NCBI GenBank assembly: GCA_016939365.1
Contig: JAFGHD010000007.1
Location: 1 to 62,565 of the forward strand
Direction of reading: 5' to 3'
Length of the DNA: 62,565 nt
From: Bacteroidales bacterium
GTDB lineage: Bacteria; Bacteroidota; Bacteroidia; Bacteroidales; JAFGHD01
The stretch's first letter is position 1, and each line of letters begins with the position of its first letter. Shown here piece by piece: positions 12,212-43,733 of the stretch. The position numbers and the translations under genes are program-made. The notes under the pieces were generated by a model. It was not told the origin of the DNA and searched no databases. It saw only the letters and a program-made list of their open reading frames with translations.

Positions 12212-14168
12212 ATGTTGTATATCAGACTCTCGATCCTTCTCATCCTTTCGGTACAGATGATGAAGGTATATCCCCGGCAATGCGGAAATGAAGATGAGGA
12301 AATCAGCAGGATTTTCGGTGACCGGAAAGAAGTGTATTTCAGGTTTAATGTTTTTTCAGAAAAGGACATACACTTCCTGACCCGGATCATCTCGATCGAC
12401 CGTGTGTCCGGAGGCCATGTGGTTTATGCATATGCCGATCCATTGGAATTCGGAGAATTCCTGGATTATGGTGCGGAATATGCGTTGCTGGTGCCTCCGG
12501 GACTGATGGTTCAGCCGGAGATGAGACCTTCGGTCAACCTTAGGGCACTTACCGAATGGGATTTTTATCCCACTTACGAGGCGTACCTGGATATGATGAA
12601 CCAGTTTGCACAGGATTATCCGGACCTGTGTGAGGTATTCAGTATCGGTCAATCCATTCAGGGAAGGGAATTCACTCTTGAGATTTCAGAGGATAAAATG
12701 CCACTTGCAAGCCAGTTACCCAATTTCTGGGAATATAATTACAGGTCATTCCTGAATTACATCGAGCAGACCGGCTTTGGCATCAGGGGAGCCGTTACCG
12801 ATTCCGTGACCGGTCAGCCATTGATTGCGGAGGTATACATTGAGGACCATGAAAAGGACAGTTCCTGGATTTACTCCACTGCCGCTACCGGTATCTACTT
12901 CAGACCGGTTTATGCAGGTATTTGGGATGTCACCTTTTCCGCTCCCGGTTTTTTTTCCAAAAACATATCATGGCATCCAGACGATCAACAGGACGGTTAC
13001 TTCGCTTGATGCTGCATTGGTGCCGGGCGACCTCATTGCTGATTTCATTGCGGACAAGACCTCCATCAGTGTGGGTGAGACGGTCGGCTTCACCGATCTG
13101 ACCCGGGGCAACCCCGTTTCATGGTTGTGGTCCTTTGAAGGCGGGGATCCTCCTTCCTCCACGCTGCAAAATCCGGCAGGGATCACCTACAACAGCACGG
13201 GTAACTATGATGTGACCCTTTCTGTTGACGACGGAAGCAACGTCCACACCCTCACCCGTTACGATTATATCCAAGTCAGTGTGGAATACCTGATGCAGAG
13301 CGGACAGGTGACGACATGCAACGGAACCTTTTTGGACACGGGAGGAATTGAAAATAATTATTCCGACAACGAAGACATGACGATGACCTTCCTCCCGGAA
13401 GAACCGGACGGCAGGATCGCCTGCGATTTCACATTATTTGCAGTGGAGTGGGAAAGCAACTGCGATTACGACTGGCTGAAGGTGTTTGACGGATTGTCCC
13501 CGTCCGCCCCCCTGATCGGGAAATACTGCGGTACCGGTTCACCGGGATACCTCATAGCTACCAATCCCGATGGGGCACTTACATTTCAGTTCCATTCCGA
13601 TTATTCAGTTACTGAACCGGGCTGGGTGGCTCTCGTCACCTGTGAGGATCCCCCCGCAGTTCCCCTGGCGGATTTCACAGCTGACCAGACCATGATTCAT
13701 CCCGGAGAAACAGTCAGTTTTTCTGACCTCTCGCTTCATAACCCGACTTTCTGGTCATGGAATTTCCCGGGAGGCGATCCATCCTCAAGTTTCATCCAAC
13801 ACCCTTGGGTGATCTATCATGACCCCGGACAGTATGACGTCACCCTGACAGCCTCCAACGCGTGCGGCTCCGATACCAAAACGATTGAAAATTTCATCAC
13901 CGTGGAACCCTTAAGCCTGACCGAGGATTACTCCGCAGGCGGTATCCTGCTCTTCCCGAATCCGGCCAGGGAGTATCTGGAACTCCGTCCGGTGATGCCC
14001 GGCGGAATCGTTACGGTCATGGACCTCTCCATGAAGGTAGTGAAATCGTTCACTGCGCAGACCGTTTACGGAAGGATGCCCATCGGAGATCTCTCTCCAG
14101 GTATATATTTCCTGGCTTATCGATACGGAGATTATCCGTTTTTCAGGAAGTTTGTGGTCATCAGATAA
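12212..14168 (+). pseudogene. M14 carboxypeptidase remnant with PKD and CUB domains and T9SS signal: active site deleted, frameshifted
   Basis: A signal peptide starts at the ATG at 12212. The N-terminal propeptide-like region and the entry to the peptidase domain (FYPTYEAYLDMMNQF, VFSIGQSIQGRE) match the intact paralogue at 14226. Immediately after GRE the sequence jumps to FTLEIS, which in the paralogue lies 210 codons later, so the zinc ligands, the NRN substrate loop and the distal His are gone. At the T8 run 12949-12956 the frame slips by one base; removing one T restores an ungapped match to the paralogue. Beyond it lie a PKD domain, a CUB-like domain (CDYDWLKVFDG), a second PKD domain and a type A sorting domain ending KFVVIR. 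Even if expressed whole it could not be a carboxypeptidase; a binding role for the CUB/PKD part is conceivable. Confidence 0.82.
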
Positions 14169-42683: not shown

Positions 42684-42804
42684 GGTGTACACGGGCTGGG
42701 ATTAGGCTTACCGCCGGACTCCCCTCAGGGAAGTGCTCATGGGCATCCAGGCGCTTGGGATACAGGAACAGCAACATCGAAAGATTACGGAAACGGGAAG
42801 AACA

Positions 42805-43305
42805 ATGAAAACTTACCATAACAGGTTACCGGACCTGGCCATGGGAATTCTGGAGGGGAACAGAAACCCTGACTTCATCAGGGCCTATGCCGGTATCATT
42901 GAGCAGGCGACTCCAATCGATATTGTCGTTGCGGTCGGCATTATGGCCGGTGTTGGGAAATCCATGGACGAGCTGAAAAGAACGGTCAGCCGGCTGATCA
43001 ATTTGCTTTATGTCCCCTTGAGTGGGAACAAAAGGGCTGCAATGCGCGCAATTCCTTTTATCGGCATCATGATGGAGGAGAACAGGGAGATGGAGAAGCG
43101 AATGGACCGGATCAGATTGGATGTCAGGGCTATCAATGATGCCGTTGGAAGAGGGGAGCCGGCAGAAGTGATGAAGAATGCCTTGCTCAGCCGCATCATT
43201 GAACTGGAAGCCTTCGGGAATCATTATCTCCTTAAGGAAAATGTCCTTTTCCCCTACCTTGAAAAGGTATGGCCGGAGCACAGATGTCTCAGCCTGTGGA
43301 CATAA
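42805..43305 (+). pseudogene. DUF438/hemerythrin-like protein truncated inside its hemerythrin domain
   Basis: From the ATG at 42805 (an ATG at 42733 adds 24 unlikely residues) it reads 166 residues: a DUF438-like helical start, then hemerythrin helices 1 and 2 (IGIMMEENREMEKRMDRI, FGNHYLLKENVLFPYLE with the His and Glu ligands). It stops at EHRCLSLWT. In intact relatives EHRCL is followed by another WSxHDD-type helix and the rest of the hemerythrin bundle before the PAS domain. Here helices 3 and 4 are missing and the frame changes. The family is linked to nitrosative stress. It overlaps the PAS frame by 37 bases. Confidence 0.68.
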
Positions 43306-43733
43306 AGGAAAATGTCGTATGGCTCGGGACCGGTGGGCTTCCTGCCGACCATATCGGATTGCTGTTTAACCATCTGCCGGTGGATATCACCTTTGTTGAC
43401 AGGAACGACAGGGTGAAATACTTCTCGCAGGGAAAGGAGCGGATATTCCAGCGGAACCGGGCTATCCTGAACCGGGATGTCCGGATGTGCCACCCTCCGT
43501 CCAGCGTACATGTGGTGCAACAGATAATCGATGACTTCAGGAGCGGAAAGCAGGACTCGGCGGCATTCTGGATCCGGATGAAGGGCCAGTTCATCCACAT
43601 CGAGTATTTTGCCCTCAGGAATGAACAGGGGGAATACCCCGGTACCCCCGAAGTGTCGCAGAACCTGACCTCCAAGCGTGCACTTGAAGGGGAACAGAGG
43701 ATATTGTCATATTCAGGGCAGAATGAATCATGA
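43269..43733 (+). CDS. PAS domain half of a split DUF438-type protein
   Basis: 154 residues in another frame than the DUF438 part; ATGs at 43269 and 43284 are possible starts. The PAS core has LLFNHLPVDITFVDRNDRV, YFSQGKERIFQRNRAI, RDVRMCHPPSSVHVVQQI, FWIRMKGQFIHIEYFALR and VSQNLTSKRALEGEQRIL. This is the C-terminal third of the usual DUF438-hemerythrin-PAS protein. Because the PAS domain keeps every core motif and an open frame, it may still be made as a free sensor, translated by reinitiation or coupling. Its stop overlaps the next start (ATGA). Confidence 0.7.
   Translation: MAGAQMSQPVDIKENVVWLGTGGLPADHIGLLFNHLPVDITFVDRNDRVKYFSQGKERIFQRNRAILNRDVRMCHPPSSVHVVQQIIDDFRSGKQDSAAFWIRMKGQFIHIEYFALRNEQGEYPGTPEVSQNLTSKRALEGEQRILSYSGQNES

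Follow-up and report, generated by a model that had tools for sequence, protein, structure and literature searches.

A probable recent pseudogene of a secreted M14 carboxypeptidase beside intact paralogues in a Bacteroidales genome

The window analysed here, a stretch of 62,565 nucleotides from a Bacteroidales draft genome, contains two M14 carboxypeptidase genes in tandem, and the upstream copy combines an in-frame loss of 210 codons of its catalytic core with a frameshift further downstream. This copy is probably a recent pseudogene that arose by a deletion between short repeats and an indel in a homopolymer run, beside intact paralogues; the presence of two separate lesions in one gene counts for this explanation. 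The ancestral gene would have encoded a secreted M14 carboxypeptidase with the domain order M14, CarboxypepD_reg, PKD, CUB, PKD and sorting tail. A deletion between two short Arg-Glu-coding repeats lying in the same phase would have taken out the core, and a separate small indel in a T8/A5 stretch, occurring earlier or later, would have shifted the frame of the remainder. The loss would have been tolerable given the intact neighbour and a further paralogue on contig C171. The two lesions, an intact orthologue at the matching place in the gene order and the conserved residues that the broken gene retains are seen in the sequences themselves; slippage at the repeats, loss of function and a relaxed need owing to the paralogues are inferred.

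Organization of the tandem M14 genes

The first open reading frame of the upstream gene (ORF1, 265 aa) starts with the ATG at 12212 and ends at a premature stop codon (13007-13009). Its match to the Pfam Peptidase M14 profile (23.2 bits) is confined to positions 2-38 of 286; CarboxypepD_reg is matched at positions 2-63 of 82, likewise with 23.2 bits and hence below the cut-off of 32.3, and the N-terminal region is without a Pfam match. A second frame is open from 12825 to 14168 and holds the remaining domains, including CUB (~13308-13631), the second PKD (~13674-13889) and a weak Por_Secre_tail match (~13950-14159; 21.3 bits against a cut-off of 27); judged by eye, this part has no signal-like start of its own. 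The sequence-only reading had stated that the prodomain, PKD, CUB and sorting domains remain. Their sequence is indeed present, but PKD, CUB and tail are cut off by the frameshift and the stop, and the region named as prodomain is the one without a Pfam match.

Table 1. Coordinates of the tandem M14 genes, the two lesions and the repeats in the window.
Feature	Start	End	Strand	Content
ORF1 of the broken upstream gene	12212	13009	+	Signal-like N terminus (by eye), N-terminal region, M14 remnants, truncated CarboxypepD_reg
Out-of-frame remainder of the upstream gene	12966	14168	+	PKD, CUB, PKD, weak Por_Secre_tail match
Deletion junction, single AGGGAATT	12665	12672	+	Paralogue and congener orthologue have 210 more codons here
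Frame change in TTTTTTTTCCAAAAA	12949	12963	+	T8/A5 stretch
Intact tandem paralogue, 579 aa	14226	15965	+	M14 carboxypeptidase, CarboxypepD_reg, weak Por_Secre_tail
First repeat AGGGAGTT in the intact paralogue	14691	14698	+	Sequence position
Second repeat AGGGAATT in the intact paralogue	15321	15328	+	630 bases after the first repeat

The downstream paralogue matches Peptidase_M14 with 4.4e-59, its sorting-tail match lying below the cut-off, and among solved structures it scores best against carboxypeptidases D, M and N, with whose corresponding segments its M14 motifs align. The genome to which the window belongs (G000) yields 11 M14 rows, further intact M14 genes among them, and the paralogue on C171 shows the same M14-CarboxypepD_reg-PKD-CUB order as the upstream gene. 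This paralogue (G000:C171:10742-12865, L074) forms a pair with a gene on contig C24 of a congener genome, G001 (L073); the two encode 910 and 919 aa, and their domain order was assigned by alignment. Their C-terminal region differs and replaces the PKD and sorting tail.

Loss of the catalytic core at a short repeat

The sequence-only reading had proposed that the upstream copy lost its active site at a short repeat, and most of its particulars are borne out. The two repeats of the intact paralogue lie at the positions it gave, 630 bases or 210 codons apart, and protein alignment reveals that 210 codons are absent from the upstream copy relative to both the paralogue and the syntenic orthologue in G001. 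The two sides meet in frame at Arg-Glu (...SIGQSIQG-RE-FTLEIS...), which confirms the junction at a single AGGGAATT. According to PMC11266112, active M14 metallocarboxypeptidases require the zinc ligands (HxxE and a second His), the substrate-binding Arg and the catalytic Glu, the key residues being H69, E72 and H196, R127 and R145, and E270. The paralogue motifs MHGDE (14769), DLNRN (14973) and NIHGG (15093) fall inside the missing stretch, so both zinc-ligand motifs are gone, and the segment FTLEIS with the catalytic Glu (15327 in the paralogue) is the sole active-site motif kept; the claim that everything needed for catalysis except one Glu has been lost was therefore right.

Of 34,352 pairs of positions on either side of the paralogue's core, only 18 agree in at least 7 of 8 bases, three of them in frame, and the two repeats themselves agree at 7 of 8 bases as read from the paralogue. 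With so few equally good pairs, the repeat at the junction is unlikely to be a matter of chance, which supports a deletion at a short repeat as the probable route of core loss. The repeats are, however, in part Arg-Glu codons that both sites share, two Arg-Glu motifs in the same phase. The G001 orthologue likewise has GRE starting at residue 172 and CRE at residue 382, also 210 codons apart; however, it writes these motifs in other codons and lacks the 8-mer repeat, so that an ancestral 8-mer would have to be deduced from the paralogue. A deletion falls in frame by chance one time in three, and these two repeats force an in-frame outcome. The in-frame deletion nevertheless counts against a pseudogene, as selection for a product would favour it.

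A frameshift in a homopolymer stretch

The second lesion, which the sequence-only reading missed, lies in TTTTTTTTCCAAAAA: the family match runs in frame 2 (start position modulo 3) until this stretch and in frame 0 beyond it. At the site of the frame change, GYFPK is found in the paralogues on C24 and C171, and GYFAK in the G001 orthologue. Counted from the codon at the end of the T run, the stop comes 16 codons later and falls inside CarboxypepD_reg; the signal-like start and the PKD-CUB-PKD-tail part, being in different frames, do not share an ORF.

This finding weighs on the earlier suggestion that the gene may have become a secreted binding protein. A secreted core-less protein that binds substrate through PKD and CUB would presuppose that the frameshift is false or bypassed, and we consider it improbable, even though the deletion itself is in frame and the frameshift sits in a homopolymer run, the kind of place where errors are common. 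The stop is present in the assembled sequence, and six other A or T runs of at least 8 bases in the window lie inside ORFs that all stay open. A bypass would moreover need a net loss of one base in the transcript, and in PMC5574713 transcriptional deletions in E. coli are rarely located in homopolymers and none is seen to restore a reading frame. A related idea, in which the T8 run acts as a length-variable switch and in-frame cells secrete a core-less M14-PKD-CUB protein that either shields substrate or presents it to the neighbouring carboxypeptidase, is very unlikely.

An intact orthologue in a congener genome

Among the 60 relatives searched, G001 is the sole genome of the same genus, and its contig JAFGME010000127.1 carries an intact upstream gene (L072/L078; 882 aa) with the order M14-CarboxypepD_reg-PKD-CUB-PKD-tail. 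Window and G001 have a six-gene order in common, which in G001 comprises a flavin-reductase-like gene (with a Pfam match just below cut-off), DUF6913, the 882-aa M14 gene, a 596-aa M14 gene, a spermine-synthase-like gene and a 460-aa gene, the counterpart of a 487-aa gene in the window that is without a Pfam match. The Pfam assignments cover the genes of the window and the 882-aa protein, and the gene pairs align with each other. The intact gene resembles the upstream copy in gene order and domain order and differs from it in keeping the 210 core codons and one frame; from this it follows that the ancestral upstream gene was complete. Relative to this gene, the upstream copy as assembled thus carries two disabling lesions, the 210-codon deletion and the frameshift.

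Amino-acid identity between the two upstream genes is 42-64%, depending on the segment. Tree support is low (ultrafast bootstrap 24-88) and the two genes are not firmly paired, so that their orthology rests on gene order and the PKD-CUB-PKD-tail architecture. The terminal branches leading to the window and G001 genes measure 0.54 and 0.47, respectively, in the first of two trees; the second gives 0.49 and 0.59, and neither shows clear acceleration. A contig search for more congeners, which may leave out the window's own genome, returned five loci: L078, which is G001 itself, and four others at 28-46% identity.

A junction-spanning probe of 81 aa matched in 82 of 393 genomes of the order (E 1e-12 or better). 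At its own locus it scores 182 bits over its full length, the next best match reaching 78.4 bits over half of it, and within the 82 matching genomes no strong match across the whole junction was found besides the own locus. Some low-score matches nominally cross the junction, e.g. in G286 (positions 1-78, 71.6 bits). In the five loci that were worked out (G286, G202, G349, G104 and G134), the distance between the two probe halves exceeds that in the window by 624-630 bases, indicating that these carry the core and that its length is conserved. Orthologues sharing the deletion, which the sequence-only reading had proposed to look for, are thus missing from the strong matches in these genomes, and the only congener found is intact. 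This counts against the binding protein, as an inactive form conserved in relatives was not encountered.

A product consisting of ORF1 alone, i.e. a secreted N-terminal protein without enzymatic core that inhibits or escorts the neighbouring carboxypeptidase, would profit from the retained signal-like start and conserved N-terminal region, and a catalytically dead paralogue that activates an enzyme has a precedent in another family (PMC5201418). We rate this as highly improbable: such a product ends inside CarboxypepD_reg and has no sorting tail, and it is not conserved, given that the orthologue is full length. AlphaFold models of ORF1 have a mean pLDDT of 58.3, with residues 138-176 around the junction below 50; the intact paralogue, modelled as a control with the same five rows, reached 46.3, and this failed control renders the models uninformative on ORF1.

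Age of the damage and signs of selection

Measured against G001, four segments of the upstream copy have dN values of 0.31-0.58, close to the 0.37-0.90 of five complete neighbouring genes. The broken gene thus shows no clear surplus of changes, and with pS at 0.65-0.78 synonymous sites are saturated, so that dN/dS cannot decide and no ratio is given. In a neutral simulation, the first stop appeared at a median of 0.0097 substitutions per site and in 95% of cases by 0.040. The 650 codons of the upstream gene, read in the two frames, contain no further stop, which makes a neutral history beyond ~0.04 substitutions per site unlikely.

Positions that do not vary among the remaining sequences are kept at 18/18 and 18/18 on the two sides of the junction, at 54/56 in PKD-CUB and at 36/43 in PKD-tail, the last figure being based on four of eight sequences since the rest lack that part or differ there. 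Intact relatives in the same tests keep 86-100%, 92-98% and 80-88% for junction sides, PKD-CUB and PKD-tail, respectively. The M14 remnants are identical to the G001 orthologue at 29/38 and 25/33 positions; in the intact downstream pair the corresponding segments agree at 24/38 and 19/33 positions, and in the C171-C24 pair at 32/38 and 22/33. As the remnants are as conserved as in intact pairs, no drift is visible since their purpose was lost, although past the junction the remnant differs at 2 of 17 conserved columns, all of which the G001 orthologue keeps.

On these comparisons, the damage looks recent. The well-kept PKD-CUB-PKD-tail part, with no stop in its own frame, speaks for a binding protein, and purifying selection on a working protein would also be expected to prevent drift, which counts against the pseudogene; the absence of drift in the M14 remnants in turn speaks against the binding protein. 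Conservation by itself would fit a recent pseudogene and a protein under selection alike, and the frameshift tips the balance towards a pseudogene. Taken with the recent look and the lack of a strong match across the junction in any relative examined, it leaves the proposed secreted binding protein without support.

Relation to known pseudopeptidases and pseudogenes

PMC11266112 describes the M14 pseudopeptidases AEBP1/ACLP, CPXM1, CPXM2, CPD-III and Ecm14, which are likewise inactive and several of which have extra binding domains. In these proteins, the carboxypeptidase domain is kept and the listed active-site residues differ, whereas the upstream copy has lost most of the domain and carries a frameshift. 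It also departs from one continuous secreted product with binding domains, as the stop precedes PKD, CUB and tail. A literature search for CUB-bearing bacterial M14 proteins and type IX secretion returned nothing relevant, from which we make no claim of absence from print.

Deletions between short direct repeats and indels in homopolymers are known ways in which bacterial pseudogenes form. Ordinary cases resemble the upstream copy in having a repeat at the junction, an indel in an A/T run and intact relatives nearby, and the copy is set apart from them only by the in-frame deletion that spans the active site; mechanism and parts are all within known kinds. Given the intact orthologue and the overlooked frameshift, it is most likely an ordinary broken gene caught early. 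The case cautions that an in-frame deletion of an active site can mimic a designed pseudoenzyme, and it offers one clean example in which two short Arg-Glu-coding repeats flanking the M14 core may serve as deletion ends.

Reliability of the assembly

Both lesions are known from the own assembly alone, a draft of 197 contigs, and may conceivably be artefacts of assembly or library preparation, with an intact gene in the living genome; we hold this to be rather unlikely. Collapse between the tandem paralogues, which the sequence-only reading had named as its own refuting case, was considered and rejected as unlikely. It would not give this junction, because the sequence on the 3' side is the upstream copy's own, and nowhere else in the window does any part of the upstream gene match exactly over more than 19 bases. 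When the assembly was searched with a 401-base DNA query across the junction, no further copy of this region turned up; the hits were paralogues at 71-74% identity and short chance-like matches, and none of the 11 M14 rows looks like a stray core by profile range and score.

For a lesion scan, 1.01 Mb of G000 were compared with 0.77 Mb of G001, keeping best hits with at least 45% identity and at least 100 bits, so that genes lacking a close counterpart in G001 or having a paralogue as best hit escape it. It detected three events at 142 testable places: the frameshift of the upstream gene and, within a single 2032-aa protein, two in-frame gaps. In the opposite direction, no event was seen at 159 places. 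Lesions are therefore not general, with one frameshift signal in the sampled assembly, and this rarity also speaks against a false frameshift as required by the binding protein. The scan flagged the frameshift via the downstream paralogue of G001, and it flagged neither the deletion nor the second damaged gene described below. Pfam scans of 30 further ORFs of the window gave matches that mostly cover their profile well.

A second apparently broken gene lies at 42733-43733 (+), with an N-terminal part (42733-43302) and a PAS_10 part (43269-43733) that almost abut and lie in different frames. The N-terminal part has no Pfam match; we take it to be DUF438-like. In four relatives (L092, L094, L095 and L096), both parts are found in one ORF of 402-416 aa with ~94-108 residues between them, so the window gene appears to have lost about 280 internal bases out of frame. 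With at least two damaged genes in the region, general decay and artefact both become slightly likelier, and this second gene, which likewise looks deleted and frame-changed, counts against the pseudogene by leaving room for artefact.

The 2032-aa protein of G001 (C217, ORF from 27386) shows in-frame gaps of 107 and 446 residues against L216 (G000:C81) and a gap of 373 residues against L113 (G000:C56), which perhaps reflect a difference in the number of repeated domains.
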